From NCBI GenBank assembly GCA_005862225.1, contig SZXV01000002.1, positions 496,001 to 560,000 of the forward strand: DNA of 64,000 bases, written 5' to 3'. Under the pieces are notes generated by a model. The model made no database searches, was not told where the DNA came from, and was given only the letters and a program-made list of their open reading frames with translations. Shown in pieces: positions 3,031 through 44,681 of the stretch; within the stretch, counting starts at the first letter, position 1, and each line of letters starts with the position of its first letter. A program made the position numbers and the translations under genes. This stretch comes from Chlorobium sp. GTDB lineage: Bacteria; Bacteroidota; Chlorobiia; Chlorobiales; Chlorobiaceae.

Positions 3031-3837
3031 TTATGCTATTAATAATTTTGCATTAATGACGGGGCCTTCCCGGCAGAGCAGAATGGTTCGAATCCCTTCG
3101 TCAGGAGCCATGACTTCAACACTGCAGCCATAACAAATGCCGATGCCGCAGCCCATTACCGATTCAAGTGAGACATCACATGAAAGCTGGTGTTCATGGC
3201 ATAATCGGGTAAGTGCCTTCAGCATTGGATTTGGCCCGCAAGCAAAAACCTTGAGAGTGCCCTCTTTTTTCAGATCATGGAGGAAGACATCAAGCAGCTC
3301 CACGACAGTGCCTTTGAACCCGGCGGAACCATCATCAGTCGCAATACGGCAGTTGGCAAGGTTTTGGGAGAGGATGTCATCCTTTGTTCGTCCACCGATA
3401 AGATTGATCACTTTTCTGCCTTCTGCGGCAAGTGTTTTTTCAAGAAAAAGCATAGGAGCAGTACCGATTCCGCCGGAGACAAGCAATGCTGTCTCAAATT
3501 CAGGGTTTGTTCGGTTGAAGCTGTTTCCCAGCGGTCCAAGCACCGATACTGCTGAACCCTCAGTGATCTGACAGAAAAGAGTCGTACCGGCTCCGACTGT
3601 TTTCACCATGATATCGATGAGTGGGCCACGGATGTTATGAATCGAAAACGGTCTTCTGAGCAGAGGCTGCGTCGAGCTGTTAATCTTCACATTAACAAAG
3701 TTACCAGGTTGTGCTGCTGCAGCAATTACAGGGCACTCGATGGTGATGATGCTGACATCACTGCTGATTCGGCGTACCTGAACGACTGTTGCCCGGATAT
3801 CGGCAATGGCCACAGACTCGCACTGATGAGTTTGCAT
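3031..3837 (-). CDS. pyrK: Dihydroorotate dehydrogenase electron-transfer subunit
   Basis: An FAD/NAD-binding ferredoxin-reductase-like protein of about 268 residues. The FAD-binding RRPFSIH motif, the NAD-binding GGIGTAPMLFL loop and a C-terminal [2Fe-2S] cysteine set (C-GIGIC-GC followed by a distal C) are visible, as in PyrK. PyrK passes electrons from the PyrD flavin to NAD+ in pyrimidine synthesis. The open frame extends 15 codons further upstream. I prefer the start at 3837 because a CAGGA ribosome site sits about 9 nt before that ATG, while the upstream ATGs have none. No pyrD is adjacent. Confidence 0.9.
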   Translation of the reverse strand: MQTHQCESVAIADIRATVVQVRRISSDVSIITIECPVIAAAAQPGNFVNVKINSSTQPLLRRPFSIHNIRGPLIDIMVKTVGAGTTLFCQITEGSAVSVLGPLGNSFNRTNPEFETALLVSGGIGTAPMLFLEKTLAAEGRKVINLIGGRTKDDILSQNLANCRIATDDGSAGFKGTVVELLDVFLHDLKKEGTLKVFACGPNPMLKALTRLCHEHQLSCDVSLESVMGCGIGICYGCSVEVMAPDEGIRTILLCREGPVINAKLLIA

Positions 3838-4021
3838 ATTCTGATTTCCTGCGTTGTTGTTTTTCTGGAGCATGATTGCCATGCACGAACAGTTTCACAC
3901 AATATGGCCAAAATAATTAAATTAAAGAGTGTGTGCCTTATCTTTTGTAGTGTCAGCTTAGAGTTATATCTTTGACTTTTTCTGATTTTCGCACTGCATT
4001 TCCAAATCCAAAGTTCGGTTC

Positions 4022-5248
4022 ATGCGTATTTTAACATTTACAGGTAAAGGCGGAGTAGGCAAAACCAGTGTGTCTGCTGCTACGGCTGTCCGCTTGTCAG
4101 AGCTTGGCTATCGGACCCTTGTCCTTTCTACTGATCCAGCACATAGTTTATCGGATTCGTTTAACCTGCCTCTTGGCGCAGAACCAACAAAGATCAAGGA
4201 GAATCTTCATGCCATTGAGGTCAATCCTTATGTTGATCTCAAGCAGAACTGGCAGTCTGTCCAAAAATATTATACAAGGATATTTATGGCTCAGGGTATT
4301 TCCGGAGTCATGGCTGATGAAATGACCATCCTCCCTGGCATGGAAGAGCTTTTTTCCCTTTTGAGGATAAAACGCTATAAAGCCTCTGGTCTTTATGATG
4401 TCCTTGTTCTTGATACGGCGCCTACCGGCGAAACCCTGCGTTTGCTCTCCCTTCCCGATACCCTGTCATGGGGTATGAAAGCTGTAAAAAACGTCAACAA
4501 ATATCTGATCAAGCCTTTGAGCAAGCCGCTCTCAAAAATGTCTGATAAAATTGCCTTTTTTATTCCACCGGCAGATGCTATAGAATCGGTTGACCAGGTT
4601 TTTGATGAGCTTGAGGATATTCGTGATATTCTTACGGACAATCAGAAATCGACGGTTCGGCTGGTCATGAATGCAGAGAAAATGTCGATCAAGGAGACGA
4701 TGCGCGCTTTGACCTACCTGAACCTTTACGGTTTCAAGGTGGACATGGTGCTTGTCAATCGTTTGCTTGATACCAACGAAGATAGTGGGTATCTTGAAAA
4801 CTGGAAAGCTATTCAGCAGAAGTACCTTGGAGAGATCGAAGAGGGATTTTCGCCACTTCCGGTAAAAAAACTCAGGATGTACGAGCAGGAAATTGTCGGT
4901 CTCAAATCACTTGAGATGTTTGCCAAAGACATGTACGGCGATACTGATCCGTCCGATATGATGTATGACGAGCCACCGATCAAGTTTGTCCGTAACGGTG
5001 ATGTCTATGAGGTACAGTTGAAGCTTATGTTTGCCAATCCAGTTGATATTGATGTATGGGTGACCGGTGATGAGTTATTTGTACAAATCGGCAATCAACG
5101 CAAAATCATCACGCTTCCTATCAGTCTGACTGGGCTTGAACCTGGCGATGCTGTTTTCAAAGACAAATGGCTTCACATTCCCTTTGATCTTGATCGTCAG
5201 AATCACAGCCGGTCACAAAAGGAACAAAATGCGTACGATAGAGGATAA
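4022..5248 (+). CDS. ArsA/Get3-type ATPase with C-terminal Hsp20-like domain (copy 1)
   Basis: A 408-residue P-loop ATPase of the anion-transporting ATPase (ArsA/GET3) family. The deviant Walker [10 protein letters not shown] is at residues 8-16, the switch II region reads LDTAPTGETLRLL, and the last 70-80 residues look like the alpha-crystallin/Hsp20-type domain often fused to bacterial ArsA homologues. It contains no cysteine at all, so it lacks the metalloid-binding cysteines of arsenite pumps and the CxxC of eukaryotic Get3. A role in arsenite export is therefore unlikely. It sits immediately upstream of csmC-csmA, and a paralogue sits downstream of csmA. I infer a part in handling chlorosome or membrane proteins. 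Confidence 0.9.
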   Translation: MRILTFTGKGGVGKTSVSAATAVRLSELGYRTLVLSTDPAHSLSDSFNLPLGAEPTKIKENLHAIEVNPYVDLKQNWQSVQKYYTRIFMAQGISGVMADEMTILPGMEELFSLLRIKRYKASGLYDVLVLDTAPTGETLRLLSLPDTLSWGMKAVKNVNKYLIKPLSKPLSKMSDKIAFFIPPADAIESVDQVFDELEDIRDILTDNQKSTVRLVMNAEKMSIKETMRALTYLNLYGFKVDMVLVNRLLDTNEDSGYLENWKAIQQKYLGEIEEGFSPLPVKKLRMYEQEIVGLKSLEMFAKDMYGDTDPSDMMYDEPPIKFVRNGDVYEVQLKLMFANPVDIDVWVTGDELFVQIGNQRKIITLPISLTGLEPGDAVFKDKWLHIPFDLDRQNHSRSQKEQNAYDRG

Positions 5249-7928: not shown

Positions 7929-9083
7929 ATGAGAATTATTCTTTACCTGGGTAAGGGAGGGGTAGGAAAGACTACCGTTTCAGCTTCATCTGCAACAGCA
8001 ATTGCCCGAAGAGGACAAAGGGTTCTGATTATGAGCACTGATGTCGCTCACAGTTTGGCAGATGCCTTGAATGCTGAGCTTTCATCAACACCAGTCGAAG
8101 TTGAAAAAAATCTCTTTGCCATGGAGGTGAATGTCCTTGCTGAAATCAGGGAAAACTGGACAGAACTTTATTCCTATTTCTCATCGATTTTAATGCATGA
8201 TGGCGCTAATGAAGTTGTTGCAGAAGAGCTTGCAATCATGCCCGGTATGGAGGAGATGATCAGTCTTCGCTATATCTGGAAAGCGGCAAAATCAGGTAAT
8301 TATGATGTCGTGGTTGTTGATGCAGCGCCTACAGGTGAAACCATGCGTTTGCTTGGTATGCCCGAATCTTATGGATGGTATGCGGATAAAATTGGTGGAT
8401 GGCATGCCAAAGCTATTGGTTTTGCAGCGCCTCTTCTGAACAAGTTTATGCCGAAGAAGAATATTTTCAAGCTGATGCCAGAGGTGAATGATCACATGAA
8501 AGAGCTTCATGCCATGCTTCAGGATAAAGCCATAACGACTTTCAGGGTTGTTCTTAATCCTGAAAATATGGTTATCAAGGAAGCATTACGGGTACAGACC
8601 TACCTCAACTTGTTTGGCTATAAGCTGGATGCGGCGGTAGTCAACAAAATTTTACCCGAAAGCTCTTCCGACAACTATCTGCAGAGTCTTATTGATATTC
8701 AAAGCAAGTATCTCAAAGTGATTGAAAACTGTTTTTATCCTGTGCCGATTTTCAGGGTAAAACAATCCACAGCAGAAATTATCAATACCGACAGGCTTTA
8801 TACGTTAAGCCAGGAGATGTTTGGCGACAAAAACCCGGCAGATATTCTTTACAGTAGTGACAAGACCCAGATGTTGGACAAAATTAACGGAAAATATGTT
8901 TTGAGCCTTTATCTGCCGAATGTTGAGGTGAAAAAGCTTAATGTGAATATCAAAGGAGATGAACTGCTTGTGGATATCAATAATTTCCGCAAAAGCATTA
9001 TTCTTCCAAACGTTCTTGTGGGTCGAAAAACTGAAGGCGCTGATTTTATTGAAGGCAACCTCAATATTACATTTGCCAACTGA
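7929..9083 (+). CDS. ArsA/Get3-type ATPase with C-terminal Hsp20-like domain (copy 2)
   Basis: A 384-residue paralogue of the ATPase at 4.0 kb, opening [20 protein letters not shown]. The deviant Walker A and the [16 protein letters not shown] switch II segment are intact, and the C-terminal 70 residues again look Hsp20-like. There is one cysteine only (in IENCFYPVP), so metalloid coordination by a cysteine triad is not possible. Four codons upstream is another ATG (7917); the start at 7929 aligns with the start of copy 1. It begins 47 bp after the 508-residue gene and is probably co-transcribed with it. Confidence 0.9.
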
Positions 9084-10380: not shown

Positions 10381-10597
10381 GTTCCTCACAGTAAAAAAGC
10401 CCCAAAACCGGACAGTGCTTCGAGATTATTGTGTAAATTGATAAGCTGCCCCCTATCAGAAAATCATATTAATATAACAATTCTCTATCTCGTTATACCA
10501 TTGGGGATAAAATCACTCCATCATGGATCATCGAGAGTATAAAAATCATTACCTTTATTAACAGATTTTTTTTCAATGTATCAAGAGTGCGGTAAAT

Positions 10598-11476
10598 ATG
10601 AAGAACAGCGTGCGTCACGATTTTTATGAAGGGTGTCGAACAAGAGCCATGATGCTTGCTCTTGAAGAAGATCGCTATACCGGGGATATTACCACTCAGG
10701 CAACCATAGATCCGCAGCAGGAGGGGAGCGCGGTTATGAAGGCCAAGGAGGATGGCGTGCTGGGTGGGGTGGATGTGGCCGCGATGGTTTTTGCTGCTTG
10801 CGATCCGACTCTCCGAGTTTTGCAACATCGCAAGGATGGCGACGTTCTGCGTTCTGGTGATATGATTCTTGAAGTCGAGGGTAAGTTGGCTCCTCTTCTC
10901 ATCGGTGAACGCACTGCTCTGAATTTTATGCAGCGCATGTCGGGGATAGCGACCAAAACAAGGAGCTACGTTGATACCATAAGCCATACCGGTGTAAAAA
11001 TTCTTGATACACGGAAAACAGCCCCGGGGTTACGCTATTTCGACAAGGAGGCCGTCAGAATAGGCGGCGGGGTAAATCATCGTTTTGGCCTGTTTGATAT
11101 GATTCTCATCAAGGATAACCATATCGATGCCTCTGGTGGAATTGCTGCTGCGATTCGTCGTGCACAGATCTATCGCGAACAGCAAAATCTCGATGTCAAC
11201 ATTGAAACCGAGGTTCGTTCGATGGAGGAGTTAAGCAAGGCACTGGTATGCCTGCCGGATATTATTCTGCTTGACAATTTCACTCCTGAACTGCTGAAGG
11301 AGGCGGTTGATTATGTCAGGAGGGTATCCAGCACTATTCTGCTCGAAGCCTCAGGCAATATTGGTATGCACAATGTGTTGGCAGTGGCCGAAACCGGGGT
11401 TGATTATATTTCAATTGGTGAACTGACGCACAGTGTCAAGTCACTTGATCTTTCCCTGAAAATAGCGCTTGCCTGA
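10598..11476 (+). CDS. nadC: Nicotinate-nucleotide pyrophosphorylase (carboxylating)
   Basis: A 292-residue quinolinate phosphoribosyltransferase that makes nicotinate mononucleotide from quinolinate and PRPP in NAD synthesis. Visible family blocks are EDRYTGDITTQATID, ERTALNFMQRMSGIATKT, DTRKTAPGLRYFDKEAVRIG, NHRFGLFDMILIKDNHI and the C-terminal VDYISIGELTHS. It is 11 bp upstream of acpS and the two are probably co-transcribed. The 217 bp before the gene are AT-rich and likely hold its promoter. Confidence 0.96.
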   Translation: MKNSVRHDFYEGCRTRAMMLALEEDRYTGDITTQATIDPQQEGSAVMKAKEDGVLGGVDVAAMVFAACDPTLRVLQHRKDGDVLRSGDMILEVEGKLAPLLIGERTALNFMQRMSGIATKTRSYVDTISHTGVKILDTRKTAPGLRYFDKEAVRIGGGVNHRFGLFDMILIKDNHIDASGGIAAAIRRAQIYREQQNLDVNIETEVRSMEELSKALVCLPDIILLDNFTPELLKEAVDYVRRVSSTILLEASGNIGMHNVLAVAETGVDYISIGELTHSVKSLDLSLKIALA

Positions 11477-36180: not shown

Positions 36181-36470
36181 ATGAATACCATTCAGGTCAG
36201 AAATATTGCTCCATTAGCTGATTTCGAAAATAATATCGAAGGTATATGGATGAGCTGAGCGTCACTAAACAGCCGTTGCTTTTAACCCAGCAAGGAAAAA
36301 GTTCTGCAGTGCTGCTTGATGCGGAATTATATCAACAGATGCTTGATAAAATAGCGTTTATGCAATCGGTAACAGAAGGGCTTGAAGATTATTGTAACAA
36401 CCACACAGTGCCAGCCACGGAAGTTTTTGCTTCGCTTGAAAAGATTATTGCTGAAGCTGAAAAGGGATGA
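36181..36470 (+). pseudogene. Frameshifted Phd/YefM-type antitoxin
   Basis: The ATG at 36181 opens a frame reading MNTIQVRNIAPLADFENNIE that stops soon after. The next frame continues with the rest of a Phd/YefM antitoxin (MDELSVTKQPLLLTQQGKSS and AVLLDAELYQQMLDKI). One base is missing in GAAGGTATATGG, where GAAGGTTATATGG would restore the protein. Translation could in principle restart at the ATG at 36246, giving a 74-residue product without its DNA-binding N-terminus. No toxin follows: only a 26-codon frame starts at the overlapping ATGA. A sequencing error is the main alternative. Confidence 0.75.
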
Positions 36471-36679: not shown

Positions 36680-36813
36680 ACCAGAAGCTCTGCGGAAAAG
36701 CTTTTCTGGGGTGGTTGGGCCGTTTCCGGTAGGTTAATGCCCGCAACCAATTTTTTTTTAATAGGTTGTTGGGATGCGCTACAAAACATTGCTAACGATT
36801 ACTTACTATCTTG

Positions 36814-39723
36814 ATGAAACTCTCTTTATTTTTTTTGATGGCCAAGGTTCTCTGGCTCTGCCTTTTTTTTGACGCAGGCAGCGTTGGTGTTGTTTGTGCC
36901 CAAGTTGATAGCGCCAGAAGAGTGGCTGTTGTGTCAGCATCGGTGCCAGAAATGGGCTTAGCTGGTATTGCTCAAACTCCTGAAGTGAAGAAAGAAGATG
37001 AAAAACCCAATATCCTGACTGGTGTAATCGCCTTCATTAGTGGAGTATGGGCTTTTTTTACATTTGTCTATCCACGCGTGCGAAGTTATTACAAAAAGAA
37101 TAAAGAGCTTCAACGATATCAAGCCTTTCTCAGAGAAGAGCTGGGTTATATTCGCCTGCTTGGCTTGTCGGGTGTCGAAAGCGTCAAGGTAAACCTTAAT
37201 GATGATACTTTTGTGCCATTGCGTCTTTCAGACAGACAAGAGACAGGTGTTACATCTTCAGAAAAGGATACCATGTCTGGGCGAAATGATGGGCAGGTTC
37301 TTTATCCTGATGAAATCATGAAGCGGGTATTTAACGCTCAAAGCGGTCGCCGGATGCTGCTTGTTATCGGTGATCCTGGTGCAGGAAAAACAACGCTACT
37401 CAAGTATTATGCCTTATCTGCTCTTGACCGAAAACGTTCCTTGCGACTTGGGTTTTCTGGTTTGGTCAACGTTTTTTATCTGCCGTTGCGGGATCTTGTT
37501 CGTGATGAAAAAGGGCATTATGATTCGTTGCCTGTAAACCTTGCATTCTGGTCGGAAAAGCATCATCATACTCTTGCTGCACAGTATTTTGATGATTGGC
37601 TTCAGAGTGGAACCGCACTTGTTTTGCTTGATGGTCTTGATGAAATCAGCAACGTTGCTGACAGAATACAAGTGTGTAAATGGATAGATAATGCCTGGAG
37701 TGGATTGAGCAATGTATTTTTTGTGGTTACATCACGGGCAACTGGTTATAACAGAGATGAAGGAATCGAACTTGCTGCTGACTATGAGAGGGCTAATGTA
37801 CAGGACTTTACTTCAGAGCAGCAGGAACGTTTTTTAACGAACTGGTTCAGTGCGGCTTTTTTGAAAGACCCCCGTGATGAAGGAATGGATAAAATTGAGT
37901 GGCAGCGATGCCAGAAGGCTAAAGCCCATGAACGAACCAGGAAAATAGTAGCGCTCCTTAAAGAAGAGAAAAACAAGGGGTTGCGGCAGCTTGCGGCAGT
38001 GCCGATGATTTTGCAGATCATGGCTATTCTCTGGAAAGACAGAGATTATCTACCCGAGAGTCGCGTCGATCTTTACAACGCAGTGCTTGATTATTTCCTT
38101 GAACTCAGGGATAAGCGCAGGGAGATTACGGTGCTGATTCCGGCAAAACGTGCGCGAATGGTGCTTGGCCCGGTATCGCTTTGGATGCAAGAAGAAATGA
38201 AAACTGACGAGGTTGAACGGGAAAAGATGCAAGCCAAGATGCAGGAACGGCTTGATATCTTGTGTGAGAAAAACTATACACCACCTTCTGTTGATGACTT
38301 TTGTACCTATCTGGTGAATCGGGCAGGATTGCTTGTTGAGTATGGTTCGACGGCTTACATTTTTCGGCACAAATCTTTCAGGGAATATCTTGCCGGTGTT
38401 GAGCTTGTCAGAACCGTGCTTCAAAATCCGGAATATCTTGATACACTGATTTCCGGGTTTGGCGTTGACTGGTGGGAGGAACCATTAAAATTTTTTGTTG
38501 CCCAGGTTGATGAAAAGACATTTGATCTTTTTATCGAAAAGTTTTTCAATTCAACGGTGAGTGCGACGTTAACGCCAAAGCAGCAGTTGTTGCTTCACAC
38601 GCTCATCGAGGAAGCGCCGCAGAAGAAGATTGATGCACTCTGCAAAAAGCTTCTTTTGCCTGCAACTGATGCCAGTCGCCAGCGGGTTATTCTTGATTGT
38701 CTCAAAATTATCGGTAAACTCTCAGCTCTTGAGACCTTGCAGCAGTTCAAGGCTGACGGGCTTGCAAAAAACACAGATGTTGCTGACAGGGCTGAAGAGG
38801 TGATTCTTGCTCTGGGCGATATGAAGCTGGTATCTGAATCGCAAAAATCTGAAACCGGGGAAAAAGAAATTCAGTTTACGACTGTTATTGCCCGCTTCGT
38901 ACAACTCAAATATCGTCAACCTTCTTTTCGTAATCCGAATGAACATTATGCAGAGTACATCAGGATTCCTGGTGGAAGTTTCCGGTATTCTGTGTCAGGG
39001 AAGAAAGAGCGTGCAGGGGATTTGTATTTCGCAAAATATCCGGTAACCAACAAGTTCTATCGTTCATTCATTGCTTATGTGCAGTCACAGGCACCTGATT
39101 ATGAAGCACGGTTGCCACTCTCGACGTTCAGGAATGCGATAACCGACATTGAAAAGCGCAATTTATGGGATGACGGATTTGCTGCCTATTTGAATGAAGG
39201 CAAGGACGACCTTGCGAGTCTCTTTCGTTCGAAGCGAGATGAAGACCGGAAATTCGATGGCGATGATCAGCCAGTGGTCAGCATTACTTGGTACGCCGCC
39301 AAGGCTTATTGCTTGTGGCTCTCATTGCTTGAGGGAGGCGAGGATGGACTCTACCGTCTGCCAACGGAACAGGAGTGGGAATTTGCTGCGGCAGGAAAAG
39401 AGGGGCGTGAATATCCGTGGCCAGAAGAGAGAGGAGAGCCTTCAGCTCAATTGGCGAACTATAATGAACATGTAGGCGCTACGACCCCGGTAGGCAGCTA
39501 TCCCGACGGTGCGACACCCGAAGGATTGTACGATATGGCGGGCAATGTGTGGGAGTGGATGGATTATAAATACAATAAAGACACATCTGCCCGCGCGGTG
39601 CGCGGCGGTTCGTGGTTCAATGATCCCGTCAGTCTGCGTTGCTCTGCCCGGCTCAACGACGTCCCGGCGGTCAGGAACGACGCTATCGGTTTTCGGGTTG
39701 TCCGTCCCAGTCCCTCTTCCTGA
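36814..39723 (+). CDS. DGR target 1: membrane-anchored NACHT NTPase with C-terminal FGE-sulfatase domain
   Basis: A 969-residue protein. It has an N-terminal hydrophobic signal (residues 1-30, ending VVCAQ) and a second membrane segment (GVIAFISGVWAFFTFVYP, about 70-88) followed by basic residues, which predicts a cytoplasmic body. The NACHT NTPase has Walker A IGDPGAGKTTLL (near 186) and Walker B LVLLDGLDEIS (near 269), then a helical/HEAT-like region. From about 715 comes an FGE-sulfatase (C-type-lectin-like) domain: IPGGSFRY, FAKYPVTNKFYR, YRLPTEQEWEFAAAG, YDMAGNVWEWMD. VR1 lies at the extreme C-terminus; variable residues start at 935. The ATG at 36814 is preferred over the TTG just before it because the 22-nt leader aligns with that of target 2. 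Confidence 0.93.
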   Translation: MKLSLFFLMAKVLWLCLFFDAGSVGVVCAQVDSARRVAVVSASVPEMGLAGIAQTPEVKKEDEKPNILTGVIAFISGVWAFFTFVYPRVRSYYKKNKELQRYQAFLREELGYIRLLGLSGVESVKVNLNDDTFVPLRLSDRQETGVTSSEKDTMSGRNDGQVLYPDEIMKRVFNAQSGRRMLLVIGDPGAGKTTLLKYYALSALDRKRSLRLGFSGLVNVFYLPLRDLVRDEKGHYDSLPVNLAFWSEKHHHTLAAQYFDDWLQSGTALVLLDGLDEISNVADRIQVCKWIDNAWSGLSNVFFVVTSRATGYNRDEGIELAADYERANVQDFTSEQQERFLTNWFSAAFLKDPRDEGMDKIEWQRCQKAKAHERTRKIVALLKEEKNKGLRQLAAVPMILQIMAILWKDRDYLPESRVDLYNAVLDYFLELRDKRREITVLIPAKRARMVLGPVSLWMQEEMKTDEVEREKMQAKMQERLDILCEKNYTPPSVDDFCTYLVNRAGLLVEYGSTAYIFRHKSFREYLAGVELVRTVLQNPEYLDTLISGFGVDWWEEPLKFFVAQVDEKTFDLFIEKFFNSTVSATLTPKQQLLLHTLIEEAPQKKIDALCKKLLLPATDASRQRVILDCLKIIGKLSALETLQQFKADGLAKNTDVADRAEEVILALGDMKLVSESQKSETGEKEIQFTTVIARFVQLKYRQPSFRNPNEHYAEYIRIPGGSFRYSVSGKKERAGDLYFAKYPVTNKFYRSFIAYVQSQAPDYEARLPLSTFRNAITDIEKRNLWDDGFAAYLNEGKDDLASLFRSKRDEDRKFDGDDQPVVSITWYAAKAYCLWLSLLEGGEDGLYRLPTEQEWEFAAAGKEGREYPWPEERGEPSAQLANYNEHVGATTPVGSYPDGATPEGLYDMAGNVWEWMDYKYNKDTSARAVRGGSWFNDPVSLRCSARLNDVPAVRNDAIGFRVVRPSPSS
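39585..39708 (+). repeat. Variable repeat 1 (VR1)
   Basis: 124 bp at the 3' end of target 1 aligned without gaps to the template repeat. The first 31 bp and all non-adenine positions are identical. Fifteen positions differ and all are A in the template (to T, G or C). Ten of the 13 AAY/GAC-type template codons are altered (e.g. AAC to TTC, AAC to GTC, AAT to GCT). The 3' invariant block ATCGGTTTTCGGGTTGTCC, which ends in CGTCCC, corresponds to the initiation-of-homology region. Confidence 0.96.
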
Positions 39724-39769
39724 AATTCTGATCATCTGTTTTCTGGAACTCTGAAAAGAATTTTTTTTC

Positions 39770-40105
39770 ATGCAGAATCATGAAATGCTGATTGTCAAAA
39801 AGGCGTACGATTTTTCCAAATGGCTGTTGCTGCATACCGGGAAATTTCCGAAAAGCTACCGGTTCAGCATTGCGGTTCGTATTGAAAATGCAGCGCTGGA
39901 GTTTACCGAGCTTGTGGCGGTTGCCAATATGCGGAACGAAAAACGGCCATTACTGGAGCAGGCTGATGAGGTGCTGACTCGGTTGCGCATTCTTGTTCGA
40001 TTGAGTTTTGACATGCAGTTTATCAGCCTGAACTCCTATGAATTTGCGAGCAGCCAGATTGCAGAATTGGGGAAGATGCTTGGTGGCTGGATAAAAAAAG
40101 CTTGA
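39770..40105 (+). CDS. avd: DGR accessory variability determinant (four-helix bundle)
   Basis: A 111-residue basic, all-helical protein of the Avd/four-helix-bundle (S23-like) family: LIVKKAYDFSKWLLLHTGKF, ENAALEFTELVAVANMRN and LEQADEVLTRLRILVRLSFD are typical. Avd forms a pentameric barrel that binds the RT and the template RNA and is required for mutagenic retrohoming. It sits 46 bp after target 1 and 62 bp before TR, the standard DGR arrangement, and is probably transcribed with TR. Confidence 0.9.
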   Translation: MQNHEMLIVKKAYDFSKWLLLHTGKFPKSYRFSIAVRIENAALEFTELVAVANMRNEKRPLLEQADEVLTRLRILVRLSFDMQFISLNSYEFASSQIAELGKMLGGWIKKA

Positions 40106-40167
40106 AGAAGTTGCCGATAAATGGTAATTATTGTTTGTTCTGAATGATGGAAAAGAGCCGGTAACTG

Positions 40168-40291
40168 ATCTGCCCGCGCGGTGCGCGGCGGTTCGTGGAA
40201 CAATAATCCCGACAATCTGCGTTGCTCTGCCCGGAACAACAACAACCCGGCGAACAGGAACAACAATATCGGTTTTCGGGTTGTCCGTCCC
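40168..40291 (+). repeat. DGR template repeat (TR)
   Basis: A 124-bp non-coding copy of the VRs. It is rich in AAC/AAT codons in the VR reading frame (e.g. GGAACAACAACAACCCGG), so that A-mutagenesis can yield many residues but no stop codon. VR homology begins at ATCTGCCCGCGCGG and ends at CGTCCC; beyond this TR and VRs diverge. It lies between avd and rt. The template is unmutated by definition, which gives the direction of change. Confidence 0.97.
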
Positions 40292-40440
40292 AATCATGCC
40301 CGTTTCAATGCTTGCTAAAGCCCATTATGATGCCGTTCTTTCAAGGAATAACGGACAATTTTCTGGGCATGACATCTTGGCTCTTTCTCCTGCGGCATGT
40401 TGCCATTGCTTTCACTGGGGCATGCACAAACAGTACCCAT

Positions 40441-40487
40441 AAAACAGGTCGCTTGAGTAAGCAATTGAAAAAGCGCCCTGTTTTTTT
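40441..40487 (+). terminator. Terminator hairpin between TR and the reverse transcriptase
   Basis: A 14-nt arm AAAACAGGTCGCTT pairs with AAGCGCCCTGTTTT (one mismatch, 16-nt loop) and is followed by T-rich sequence. It should end the avd-TR RNA about 190 nt after TR, setting the 3' end of the template RNA. The rt gene starts 22 bp further on and would depend on read-through or its own promoter. Confidence 0.8.
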
Positions 40488-40508
40488 GTTTTTTTCCTGG
40501 AAAAACTG

Positions 40509-41546
40509 ATGAAAACCAGTAAACACCTTTTTGAGCGCATCATCACCTTCGAAAATGTGCTTTCGTCAGCATACAAAGCAGCGAAAGGGAAGCGCGAAAA
40601 CCAGTCGGTGCTGAGCTATTTCTCTCATCTTGAAGAGAACCTCTGGCAGATTATTGAGGAGTTGAAGAGCAAAACCTGGCAACCCGGTTTGTACACGACT
40701 TTCAACATCTACAAGCCGAAACCGAGGCAGATCAGCGCAGCTCCCTTCAGGGATCGGGTGGTGCATCACGCCCTCATTGCTTTGGTCGGGCCTATTCTTG
40801 AACGAAGCTTTATTTTCGACACCTACGCCAATCGAACGGCCAAAGGAACACACAAGGCGATAGAGCGTTATCAGCACTACCTGACGCAGTATGATTATGT
40901 GTTGAAGTGCGATATCAGAAAATATTTTCCATCCATCGATCACGAAATACTCAAATCCCTGCTTCGCAGAAAAATAGCCTGTGCTGATACCCTTTGGCTG
41001 ATTGACACCATCATCGATAACAGTAACCTGCAAACCGAGCATTTTCACTATTTCCCTGGGGATACCCTTTTTACGCCGCAAGAACGCAGAAAAGGGCTGC
41101 CGATCGGCAACCTGACCAGCCAGTTTTTTGCCAACTACTATCTCAGTTTTCTGGATCACTACGTTAAAGAGGTGTTGCGATGCAAGGGTTACGTCAGATA
41201 CGTTGATGATTATGTCTTGTTCTCAAATTCCAGGTCCGAATTGTGGGAGTGGAAAACGGCAATCGAAAAGTTTTTGGTGAAATTCAGGCTGATCCTCAAT
41301 ACAACAAGAACAGAACTTTATCCAACAACAGAAGGAAAGCGCTTTTTGGGGCAGATAGTCTTTCAGACCTACCGGCGGCTCCCTTCTGAAAATGTGCGCC
41401 GGGCGAAAAAACGGATACATTGTGTTATGTTGGATAAACCCGAAACCATGCAGAAAAGCCTTGCGGGATGGGTTGGTCATGCCCGGCAGGCAGATACGCA
41501 TAACCTTTTGCAGTCGTTGGGGTTGGCTGTGAGAAGTAATAAATAA
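40509..41546 (+). CDS. DGR reverse transcriptase
   Basis: A 345-residue RT. The catalytic box is YVDD (residues 231-234, in YVRYVDDYVLFS). Motif 4 reads GLPIGNLTSQFFANYYL (residues 196-212), where the IGxxxSQ form distinguishes DGR RTs from the QGxxxSP of group II introns and retrons. Earlier motifs include FRDRVVHHAL, the DTYANRTAKGTHKAI segment and CDIRKYFPSIDH (motif A aspartates). There is no maturase or endonuclease domain, and the length is normal for DGR RTs. The low-fidelity copying of TR adenines is its known family role. Confidence 0.96.
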   Translation: MKTSKHLFERIITFENVLSSAYKAAKGKRENQSVLSYFSHLEENLWQIIEELKSKTWQPGLYTTFNIYKPKPRQISAAPFRDRVVHHALIALVGPILERSFIFDTYANRTAKGTHKAIERYQHYLTQYDYVLKCDIRKYFPSIDHEILKSLLRRKIACADTLWLIDTIIDNSNLQTEHFHYFPGDTLFTPQERRKGLPIGNLTSQFFANYYLSFLDHYVKEVLRCKGYVRYVDDYVLFSNSRSELWEWKTAIEKFLVKFRLILNTTRTELYPTTEGKRFLGQIVFQTYRRLPSENVRRAKKRIHCVMLDKPETMQKSLAGWVGHARQADTHNLLQSLGLAVRSNK

Positions 41547-41574
41547 ACATAACTAACGGTTACTCTATATCTCT

Positions 41575-44502
41575 ATGGGACTTTTTTCTTTTGCCAAGCA
41601 GGGAAGGGCTCTTTGGCTTTTTGTGTTTCTTTGCATCGGAGCTTCCGGTATTGGCTGTGCTCAACGTGATAGTGCGAAGTCGCAGGTTGTTGCTCAAACA
41701 GCGGTATCAGGGGGTACAACAATGGTGGATTTGTCAGCAGCGGAGTCTTCAGCGTCTTCTGCTCAAAATGAAGGGACTCTGCGCAATGCTGAAATGGGAG
41801 TAGCAAGTGGCCTGCCGGGATTGCTGGGCTATGCTCTGACTGCGGTAATTGCCGCTGTCGGTTGGATATTGTTCTTCTATCAACGAAAAAATATTAAACC
41901 CGATGCAGCGAAAAAAACAGAGGGTGAGTTAGAAGCAAAACAGCAATTTGTCGAGAAGGAACAAGAGAGGCGGGCTAAAACAGATTACGAATGTTATCAG
42001 GAAGCTCTGAAAGAAGAGCTTGGTACTATCAGCCTTTTGGGTACCCATGCCCTCGAGAACATACCAGTATCATTGACCAGTGTTTTTGTCTCTTTACGTC
42101 TTTCTGATACTTGGCGTAGCGAAACACGGTTTTATCCTGACACTTGTCATGCCCCGCAAACAGAAGGGTCTGTTCGTTCTCCGGAAGAGGTGATGCGCCT
42201 GGTCTTTGAAAAAAATCGTCTTTTGCTAGTTATTGGCGATCCCGGTTCAGGCAAAACAACGCTGATAAAATATTATGCACTTTCTTGTTTTGAAAACGCG
42301 CATTATAAAAAGCTTGGCTTTAAAAAACCGGTTCATGTTTTTTATATCCCGTTGCGCGAACTTACAATGACAGGTACAGATTACGCATCGCTTCCCAAAT
42401 GCTTGTCTGTTTGGGCAGGGAAACATTCAATGGATATTCCGGAAACGTTTTTTTCTGATTGGCTTCACAAGCAAACAACACTTGTTCTGCTTGACGGGCT
42501 CGATGAAATCAGCGATCAGGAACAAAGGGTAAAAGCTTGTGCCTGGATTGATCGTCTTGTTGTTGGCTTTAAGAAATCACGCTTTGTTGTAACTTCCCGT
42601 TATACCGGATACAGAAAAGGGGATGGTATTGAGCTAAAATCTCAGCATACCCGGGCTGATATTATGGATTTTACTGACAAACAGCAGTCGGAATTTTTGG
42701 GGAAATGGTTCCTGGCTGCTTATATGAGCGAGCTCCTACCGGCGGGTAAAAATCAGCAAGAGTGGGAAAGCAATCAGCAACGAAAAGCCGACGAAAAAAC
42801 AGTTGCGATTATCGCTTTTTTGAACAAAGAGGAAAACAAAAGTTTACAGTTATTGGCCGCAGTTCCCATGTTGTTGCAGATTATGGCGATTCTGTGGAAA
42901 GAGCGTCAATATCTTCCTGAAACCCGGGTGGAATTGTATAATGCGGCGGTGAATTATATTCTCGATTATCGTGACAGGCAAAGAGAGCTTTATCCCCTTT
43001 TGAGTGCAGAAGATGCCCGGCGAGTTCTGGCCCCGCTATCGCTCTGGATGCAGGAGGAGCTGGAAAAAGATGAAGCGGAGAAAGCTGAAGTGCAGCAAAA
43101 GATGCAAATTGAGCTGGATACCCTTAACAAGTCAGTTACTGCCCCGGATTTTTGTAAAAATCTTGTTGATCGAGCTGGGTTGTTGGTCGACTATGGCGAT
43201 AAGGAGTACAGGTTTCGCCACAAATCATTTCGCGAATACTTGGCAGGCGTTCAGCTTGAGAAAAAAATGCATCGAACACTTGGTGAGCTTGATGCGTTGA
43301 TAGGGCATTTTGGTGATGATTGGTGGGAAGAACCGCTCCGTTTTTTTATTGGCCAAGTTGATGCTGAGATTTTTGATGCCTTTATGGAAAGGCTTTTCGA
43401 TTCCTCACTCAGTGAAGAGTTGACGCAAAAGCAGCAGGATTTGCTGATCACTCTTATTCAGGAAGCGCCGCAGAAAAAAATCTCGGCTCTGCAAAAGAAA
43501 CTGCTGCACCCTCAAACCTCCCCTAATCAGCAGCGGTATTTGCTGGAATGTATGAAAACTATCGGCAAGCCTGAGGCTTTTGATACAGTCCGAAAGTTTA
43601 CGGAAGCGGCTCTTGCTAAAGATACCGGGATTCTGCGCCGGGCGACAGAAATCTCAGAAAACAAAGAGTCGCCAGTTAAAGGATTAAGGGGTGGGGTTGG
43701 TGCTGAGAGATTGGCTGACGTTGTTGTGGATACCCAAGGGGCACAATATATCCTGATCAAGGGCGGTTCCTTCACCTATTCCATCACGAAGACGTTGGAA
43801 CCGATGCCTGACCTTTATGTGGCAAAATTCACGGTTACCAACGCGCTTTATCGTCAATTTATCAGCTATCTGGGTTCAAGAGAGTCTGCTTCAGCCAAGG
43901 TTGTGCCTGTCGAACTTTATGTACAAGCCTTGCGGGCAAAGGCTGCTCCTGTCGAGGGATTCGCCGATTATCTACAGACCGAAATGTCTTTGGCTAAACT
44001 TTTTGCCTCCAATTATGATGCCGACAAGCGGTTCAACAAAAATGATCAGCCCGTGGTTGGTGTAACTTGGTATGCTTCCCGTGCATATTGCCTGTGGCTC
44101 TCACTTTTGGAGAGCAATGGTCGTGATACCGATATCTATCGTCTTCCATCAGAGAAGGAGTGGGAGTATGCAGCAGCGGGATCGGAACGTCGTCAATATC
44201 CCTGGGGAAATTCAGAGCCAACAAAAACACTTGCCAATTATAATGAGCATGAGGGAGCCACAACCCCGGTGGGACGTTATCCTGATGGTGTGACACCTGA
44301 AGGATTGTACGATATGGCAGGCAATGTGTGGGAGTGGATGAATAATAAATACGAAGAAAACACATCTGCCCGCGCGGTGCGCGGCGGTTCGTGGTACAAT
44401 AATCCCGACAGTCTGCGTTGCTCTGCCCGGTACCTCAACCTCCCGGCGCTCAGGTACGACCTTATCGGTTTTCGGGTTGTCCGTCCCAGTCCCTCTTCCT
44501 GA
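41575..44502 (+). CDS. DGR target 2: membrane-anchored NACHT NTPase with C-terminal FGE-sulfatase domain
   Basis: A 975-residue paralogue of target 1. The N-terminal hydrophobic stretch (LWLFVFLCIGASGIGCAQ) is followed by a linker and a second membrane segment (LLGYALTAVIAAVGWILFFY, about 82-101), then basic residues. Walker A IGDPGSGKTTLI is near 220 and Walker B LVLLDGLDEIS near 303. The FGE-sulfatase domain starts at about 725 (LIKGGSFTYS, VAKFTVTNALYRQF, YRLPSEKEWEYAAAG, YDMAGNVWEWMN), with VR2 at the end. The N-terminal linker and the mid-region differ much more from target 1 than the NACHT core and the FGE domain. It starts 28 bp after the RT stop. Confidence 0.93.
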   Translation: MGLFSFAKQGRALWLFVFLCIGASGIGCAQRDSAKSQVVAQTAVSGGTTMVDLSAAESSASSAQNEGTLRNAEMGVASGLPGLLGYALTAVIAAVGWILFFYQRKNIKPDAAKKTEGELEAKQQFVEKEQERRAKTDYECYQEALKEELGTISLLGTHALENIPVSLTSVFVSLRLSDTWRSETRFYPDTCHAPQTEGSVRSPEEVMRLVFEKNRLLLVIGDPGSGKTTLIKYYALSCFENAHYKKLGFKKPVHVFYIPLRELTMTGTDYASLPKCLSVWAGKHSMDIPETFFSDWLHKQTTLVLLDGLDEISDQEQRVKACAWIDRLVVGFKKSRFVVTSRYTGYRKGDGIELKSQHTRADIMDFTDKQQSEFLGKWFLAAYMSELLPAGKNQQEWESNQQRKADEKTVAIIAFLNKEENKSLQLLAAVPMLLQIMAILWKERQYLPETRVELYNAAVNYILDYRDRQRELYPLLSAEDARRVLAPLSLWMQEELEKDEAEKAEVQQKMQIELDTLNKSVTAPDFCKNLVDRAGLLVDYGDKEYRFRHKSFREYLAGVQLEKKMHRTLGELDALIGHFGDDWWEEPLRFFIGQVDAEIFDAFMERLFDSSLSEELTQKQQDLLITLIQEAPQKKISALQKKLLHPQTSPNQQRYLLECMKTIGKPEAFDTVRKFTEAALAKDTGILRRATEISENKESPVKGLRGGVGAERLADVVVDTQGAQYILIKGGSFTYSITKTLEPMPDLYVAKFTVTNALYRQFISYLGSRESASAKVVPVELYVQALRAKAAPVEGFADYLQTEMSLAKLFASNYDADKRFNKNDQPVVGVTWYASRAYCLWLSLLESNGRDTDIYRLPSEKEWEYAAAGSERRQYPWGNSEPTKTLANYNEHEGATTPVGRYPDGVTPEGLYDMAGNVWEWMNNKYEENTSARAVRGGSWYNNPDSLRCSARYLNLPALRYDLIGFRVVRPSPSS
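44364..44487 (+). repeat. Variable repeat 2 (VR2)
   Basis: 124 bp at the 3' end of target 2, aligned without gaps to the template repeat. Thirteen positions differ and all are A in the template. The pattern differs from VR1 (e.g. TAC, CTC, CTC and CTT codons where VR1 has TTC, AAC, GTC and GCT), so the two targets were diversified independently. Immediately 3' both VRs share a non-template sequence AGTCCCTCTTCCTGA that contains the stop codon. Confidence 0.96.
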
Positions 44503-44681
44503 AATTCTGATTTCTGTTCTCTGGAACTCTGAAAGGATTTTTTTTTTGGTTTTTAGTCAACCTTTAAGCATTTCTTTGTCATCGTTTAAGAATCCCGGGA
44601 GTACTTTGTTTTCAGTCAATCAAACAGGTTCACTGTAACCAACACGGTACTTTTTTCAACATTCTGAGAGTAAACGATACG

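Follow-up and report, generated by a model that had tools for sequence, protein, structure and literature searches.

Paired targets of diversity-generating retroelements (DGRs) that join a NACHT domain to a C-type-lectin (CLec) domain have been described by Dore et al. (2024; PMC10907252), and Chlorobi were named among the hosts of clade 5 DGRs (PMC10907252). Such targets were proposed to act as antigen sensors (Dore et al. 2024; PMC10907252), and DGR-based immunity has also been proposed by Belalov et al. (2023; PMC10053308). The order effector-NACHT-sensor is used against phage by the bNACHT and Avs proteins (PMC12169576, PMC10907252). For green sulfur bacteria, the DiGReF list of 2012 (PMC3521204) contains DGRs with 2 and 4 variable repeats (VRs) in Chlorobium phaeobacteroides DSM 266 and Pelodictyon phaeoclathratiforme BU-1. 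Here we describe a DGR (DGR-1) with several NACHT targets in Chlorobium sp. (assembly GCA_005862225.1, contig SZXV01000002.1), located in a stretch of 64,000 nt (the window) that corresponds to C4:496001-560000 of the 2.5-Mb genome. Judged by the nearest relatives of its reverse transcriptase (RT), which all belong to the Chlorobiaceae, the host is a Chlorobiaceae bacterium; more widely, relatives of the RT are spread over Chlorobiaceae, KSB1, Deltaproteobacteria, Acidobacteria, Poribacteria, and other groups. The overall design of this system is already known. New details are a target in trans, the swapping of N-terminal modules, a covarying structure in the RNA of the template repeat (TR), and a conserved, putative DNA mark after each VR.

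Template, variable repeats, and a target in trans

Target 1, the accessory protein Avd, the TR, the RT, and target 2 lie on one strand (+), in that order, within positions 36814-44502. Target 1 has 969 aa from the ATG at 36814 (36814-39723; open reading frame 36811-39723), and target 2 has 975 aa (41575-44502) and is 47% identical to it. Both consist of an N-terminus with a signal peptide (SP) and a transmembrane (TM) segment, a NACHT domain, a helical region, and an FGE domain that contains VR1 or VR2. Between them are encoded Avd (39770-40105; 111 aa; NCBIfam NF033474, E=6.5e-33, above cut-off; PF22296 bAvd, E=4.8e-21) and the RT (40509-41546; 345 aa; PF00078) with intact IGNLTSQ and YVDD motifs. 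Pfam recognised bAvd and RVT_1 as well as NACHT and FGE-sulfatase in both targets, each above its cut-off. The initial annotation had called a complete DGR from RT motifs, Avd, one TR, and VRs, and every part was found in its place. The features by which a DGR is known are present: YVDD and the DGR motif in the RT, A-only differences between TR and VR, Avd, and a VR at the 3' end of a gene within a ligand-binding fold.

The TR core (40170-40292, +) holds 28 adenines, and none of its 12 AAY codons turns into a stop codon upon substitution of A. Over this 123-nt core, VR1 (39587-39709, +) differs from the TR at 15 positions and VR2 (44366-44488, +) at 13, exactly as counted by hand in the initial annotation. 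All of these differences are at TR adenines (hypergeometric P for the A-only pattern, 5.3e-12 and 3.0e-10), as had been claimed, and substitutions at non-A template positions, named beforehand as refuting evidence, are absent from both cores. A search of the genome with its own TR revealed a fourth copy of the repeat at C4:611808-611933. This VR3 shows 17 differences, again all at TR A (P=7e-14). Pooled over the three VRs, 45/45 changes are at TR A, and the non-A positions are identical to the TR in each VR (95/95). Position 40293, A in the TR and G in all three VRs, lies at the 3' boundary and outside the mutated core. A chance repeat or ordinary similarity of paralogues is ruled out, given the 45/45 changes at TR A and flanks that have diverged by 12-27%. 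An A-limited pattern was also found in about 60 further TR/VR pairs of relatives.

VR3 forms the end of a 1,922-aa protein (L119:4192-9960, C4) about 75 kb downstream of the TR. From a ParA-like start it runs through Mrr_cat (nuclease), NACHT, DUF4062, and another NACHT to the terminal FGE. Mrr_cat and DUF4062 are recognised N-terminal effector-type domains; DUF4062 has been reported as a TIR-like NADase of an antiphage system in a 2026 preprint (PMC13174449). The match to the TR is exact across the VR, whereas the 60 nt just upstream are only 73-80% identical to targets 1 and 2, which argues that VR3 was copied from the TR rather than inherited by common descent. The two VRs and the pair of NACHT-FGE targets of the initial annotation are therefore real but incomplete: a third target of the same TR lies outside the window, which brings the receptors of this TR to at least three, and a second DGR is present in the genome.

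Comparison of the locus across relatives, a check suggested with the initial annotation, gave signs of activity. Two contigs of metagenome-assembled genomes, L045 and L048, show about 1.1% divergence outside the repeats and have identical TRs, and their main VRs differ at 11/93 sites, all at TR adenines (Fisher p=2.8e-8). The upstream VR of this pair was left out because an indel breaks the ungapped comparison. A further pair, L046 and L047, has identical VRs at 99.94% identity; it is probably the same strain binned twice and therefore uninformative. As judged from these sequences, DGRs closely related to this one are at work in nature, which supports activity for the family, and the RT of our strain is presumably active as well. 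Furthermore, across the TRs of six related loci only 4/96 differences are at adenines (P 5e-7). Since the divergence between TRs avoids adenines, selection maintains these mutable positions.

Architecture of the targets and exchange of their N-termini

In target 1, the NACHT domain (37351-37854, +; PF05729, E=6.4e-12) has the Walker A motif GDPGAGKTT and the Walker B motif LVLLDGLDE, and the FGE-sulfatase domain of C-type-lectin fold follows at 38950-39705 (+; PF03781, E=5.1e-45). The corresponding domains of target 2 lie at 42217-42714 (+; PF05729, E=9.2e-15) and 43744-44484 (+; PF03781, E=2.8e-43). Walker A, Walker B, and the sensor residues are invariant in 18 Chlorobiaceae homologues. An AlphaFold2 model of full-length target 1 was good for the NACHT and helical region and poor for the FGE part, which was then modelled alone. 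The NACHT-helical part has fold matches to human NLRC4 (E=5e-13) and NLRP3 and to Avs4 in complex with a phage portal (E=1e-5). A NACHT P-loop, a Walker B motif, and an NLR-like fold, the marks of an NLR-like or antiviral STAND protein, are thus indicated by PF05729, the invariant Walker residues, and the fold matches. None of the system models of PADLOC fits the targets. The FGE domain modelled alone (pLDDT 68, pTM 0.78) matches FGE structures, including EgtB and FGE, and the FGE domain with its VR has sequence similarity to the DGR variable protein TvpA (2y3c; E=1.3e-7). The NACHT ATPase and the terminal FGE/C-type-lectin domain with VR that had been assigned to each target thus stand, given the Pfam cut-offs passed, the TvpA match, and the fold matches.

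The VR spans the loop region 3' of the RGGSW motif, where the TR has AAY codons, and the sole cysteine nearby is that in RCSAR. FGE enzymes have two active cysteines in the region after RGGSW. Because AAY codons replace this active-cysteine region, the FGE domain of the targets is likely to display rather than to catalyse.

The membrane anchor described in the initial annotation holds in part. By hydropathy only, both targets have an SP-like N-terminus and one further hydrophobic segment, in target 1 a predicted TM segment at about aa 67-86 (37009-37068, +) followed by K/R-rich residues. But the anchor is not a defining feature, being one of several exchangeable N-terminal modules. From the positive-inside pattern after the second hydrophobic segment, the C-terminal part with NACHT and FGE is predicted to be cytoplasmic, a topology that rests on hydropathy and would fit an intracellular sensor.

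The exchange of modules became apparent from 18 Chlorobiaceae sequences that align over a common NACHT-helical-FGE core. In target 1, this core begins close to aa 100, directly behind the membrane segment. Upstream of this core, targets 1 and 2, L046, L050, and L051 have SP and TM segments. By sequence resemblance below Pfam thresholds, L040, the third target of L050, and DGR-2 (the second DGR of the genome, see below) carry a DUF4062-like N-terminus, and L049, the first target of L050, and L147 a second TIR-like type starting with FIGHSDD. A metallophosphoesterase is found in L042 and L053 (by Pfam in L042), the composite ParA-Mrr-NACHT-DUF4062 N-terminus in the remote target, and a TIR-TM-FGE arrangement in DGR-2. 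Exchange is seen even at one chromosomal site: in the sister loci L039 and L040, which share 78-97% identity with the window in the upstream neighbour, Avd, and RT, target 1 begins with a DUF4062-like N-terminus instead of the SP and TM segments found here. Such an N-terminal swap over a conserved core is what an effector-NTPase-sensor architecture predicts. Among targets of other phyla, FGE is paired with NACHT in 11/38, with nSTAND1 in 4, and with KAP in 3, and sometimes caspase or trypsin domains occur.

The sister contig L039 lacks the TR, and the end of its Avd is truncated (near 3732-4110), with two intact targets adjoining; this gap is either a real loss or an assembly collapse of repeats. 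A fragment of a Phd/YefM-type antitoxin lies upstream of target 1 at 36246-36470 and recurs at the same place in L039 and L040.

A proposed sensing role and its alternatives

In the initial annotation a sensing role was offered as inference. In the same sense, we think it somewhat probable that the targets are diversified NLR-like intracellular sensors with exchangeable outputs, fired by a matching ligand that most likely comes from a phage or another invader. In the mechanism that we propose, RT, Avd, and a single structured TR-RNA would cooperate in making a cDNA of the TR in which adenine positions are miscopied. This altered cDNA would then overwrite the 3' end of at least three genes, those of targets 1 and 2 in cis and that of the 1,922-aa protein in trans. 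In each NLR-like product, an output module at the N-terminus would be joined to a NACHT ATPase and its helical region and these to an FGE/C-type-lectin domain with the VR as its ligand face. Binding of a matching ligand in the cytoplasm, most likely a protein of a phage or another invader, to the VR face would release the NACHT from autoinhibition and lead to oligomerisation, upon which the N-terminal module would fire. The output of targets 1 and 2 could be membrane perturbation or membrane-located signalling, and that of the remote target nuclease action and/or NAD loss; effector action or killing of this kind might serve in phage defence.

Several observations speak against this proposal. 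Pfam recognised no effector domain in the N-termini of targets 1 and 2, which show membrane segments only, and the DUF4062-like N-termini of several relatives are below Pfam thresholds. The FGE model is only moderately confident (pLDDT 68), with low values in the VR loop. The neighbours of DGR-1 (aroA, a hydrolase, an SDR, and an HD protein) do not make a defence island, and the signs of activity come from relatives, whose RT shares 76-78% identity with that of the window.

The same DGR could also diversify NACHT-FGE proteins that recognise kin, partner cells, or self-made ligands in aggregation, consortium, or niche control, not invaders. Many green sulfur bacteria indeed form aggregates, nets, or consortia, clade 5 of the DGRs is concentrated among multicellular bacteria (PMC10907252), and some targets of DGR-2 lack NACHT and are probably exported or membrane-located FGE proteins. 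We nevertheless regard this explanation as unlikely, since the VR domain of targets 1 and 2 is predicted to be cytoplasmic and the nuclease, TIR, and DUF4062 modules of the relatives and the trans target are typical of abortive infection. Still less probable is a DGR that has fallen silent in this strain or now acts only rarely, its VRs being frozen historical variants and its receptors serving as fixed sensors. The strain is represented by one genome, and the L039 contig without TR and Avd end indicates that decay or assembly loss occurs. But RT, Avd, TR adenines, TR-RNA fold, and target reading frames are all intact here, zero non-A changes in three VRs (95/95) would not be seen in frozen paralogues with 12-27% flanking divergence, and in the related pair L045/L048 the VR differs at 11/93 sites, against 1.1% elsewhere. 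It is very improbable that the targets have nothing to do with recognition and act as FGE/EgtB-like catalysts or as signalling ATPases: the FGE-sulfatase family name does cover enzymes and the fold matches include EgtB and FGE, but the VR overwrites the region after RGGSW that holds the active cysteines of FGE and for which the TR provides AAY codons, hypermutation of an enzyme active site is not sensible, and the nearest DGR analogue, TvpA, is a ligand-display protein.

If the sensing role is true, these systems would be the counterpart, in bacteria, of somatic hypermutation, here directed at NLR-type receptors. In the trans target, a diversified sensor is coupled to nuclease-like and putative NADase domains, and because the outputs of these (DNA damage, NAD loss) can be assayed, the function of DGR-diversified STAND proteins becomes directly testable. 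In addition, the relatives supply natural module-swap variants and a near-identical pair of loci with diverged VRs.

Template RNA, putative target marks, and a second DGR

The 213-nt spacer from TR to RT shows strong conservation across 12 Chlorobiaceae loci and folds into a helix that closes the 3' end of the TR, two hairpins, and a terminator-like hairpin. The long-range helix (40294-40372, +) pairs 40294-40301 with 40365-40372 around a covarying hairpin, and the conserved terminator-like hairpin with its T run (40441-40484, +) lies between the TR-RNA and the RT gene. The TR-RNA model comprises 54 pairs with 98.5% paired cells and 8 pairs with compensatory changes; 0/500 shuffles reached this level, and slid controls gave 40-48%. 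Because this very alignment had yielded the structure, the comparison with slid controls favours it, and the compensatory counts are the stronger evidence. A sigma-70/terminator scan gave background level and did not list the conserved hairpin, which came from the comparison of loci, and an Rfam search of the 64-kb window gave no match.

A conserved element with CTG about every 8 nt follows VR1 (39715-39756, +; TCTTCCTGAAATTCTGATCATCTGTTTTCTGGAACTCTGAAA) and VR2 (44494-44534, +). The form TCTTCCTGAAAWTCTGATCNYCTGATWTCTGGAACTCTGAAA, likewise with CTG about every 8 nt, was found directly after the VR in 20/21 Chlorobiaceae sequences, including the remote third target. The one exception, L040c, is an FGE gene that does not match the TR in an A-limited way. 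Since the element falls in differing reading frames and also in non-coding DNA and is absent after the TR, we suggest that it is a target mark at the DNA level. Together with the TR-RNA fold it would offer a handle on the choice of targets, in cis as well as in trans, by a cellular DGR, which is less understood than in the Bordetella phage. When the spacer of DGR-1 was compared with its post-VR element for complementarity, the matches were weak and inconsistent, and no complementarity is claimed. Inverted complementarity of post-TR and post-VR DNA as a general rule for DGRs was also rejected, as only 6 of 82 TR/VR pairs beat all shuffles, the strongest being DGR-2-type loci.

DGR-2 itself is complete and of the HRDC type (L120:5618-12080; C4:265617-272082). 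It contains a 1,056-aa NACHT-FGE target, an HRDC protein, an RT with 41% identity to that of the window, its own TR (TR2), and a 430-aa membrane FGE target, so that one genome has two clear NACHT/FGE DGR systems. TR2 also has two VRs in trans, one in a TIR-TM-FGE protein (L143:3777-5231; C4:168101) and one in an FGE protein that is probably exported (L144:6573-7673; C3:58569). The majority of their differences, 16/20 and 18/23, are at adenines of TR2. The flank after TR2 (near 10580-10615) is the reverse complement of a post-VR flank (near 8787-8823) in 29/36 columns. Similar inverted flanks occur in L022, L029, L030, L019, and L020; in L029 they agree at 19/19 positions, with both sides unlike those of other genomes. 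This suggests base pairing of TR-RNA or cDNA with the target site. Two further genes deserve mention. One encodes a NACHT-FGE protein of the same family whose FGE tail is diverged from either TR (L147:6570-9743; C9) and which may be an orphan target that has either escaped from its DGR or lost it. The other is an FGE gene with 73% identity to TR2 (L145:5592-6446; C4); it shows many non-A changes and is probably a decayed DGR-2 target. As a tentative joint reading, at least 7 VRs at 5 loci served by 2 templates may constitute a genome-wide NLR-like repertoire in which sensing diversity is spread over several killing outputs (membrane anchor, nuclease and putative NADase, TIR, exported). VR-adjacent DNA would then mark the targets, by the CTG-periodic element in DGR-1 and by apparently covarying inverted flanks in DGR-2, where pairing would guide retrohoming.

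Among known systems, DGR 3 and DGR 6 of Thiohalocapsa PB-PSB1 (clade 5D; PMC10907252) resemble ours in having two targets around one RT, a central NACHT or nSTAND1 domain, and a C-terminal CLec/FGE domain with VR, and one target of DGR 3 likewise has a cytoplasmic NACHT and CLec (PMC10907252). The clade 5D architecture of two targets, a central STAND NTPase, and a single C-terminal CLec is found here, a likeness of architecture. Two features set DGR-1 apart from the clade 5D systems of Dore et al.: its TR has an additional target in trans, at a distance of 75 kb, whose N-terminus carries nuclease-like and DUF4062 domains, and comparison of sister genomes shows N-terminal modules swapped at a single chromosomal site. 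The green sulfur bacterial DGRs in the DiGReF list (PMC3521204) also have several VRs; that list gives them by VR number and, as far as compared, describes neither NACHT targets nor a TR-RNA structure or post-VR element. TvpA of Treponema denticola (2y3c) shares the FGE-like C-type-lectin domain with the VR at the C-terminus but is a surface lipoprotein without NACHT. The bNACHT/Avs STAND proteins (PMC12169576; 8dgf) have the same order of effector, NACHT/STAND, and sensor, with fold matches to Avs4 and to human NLRC4 and NLRP3, but their known sensors are fixed repeat or helical domains and not a DGR-diversified FGE domain. Finally, the DGR of Bordetella phage BPP-1 has the same Avd-TR-RT order and a structured RNA between TR and RT, but it diversifies a single phage tail-fibre target, whereas the DGR described here serves several cellular NACHT receptors.

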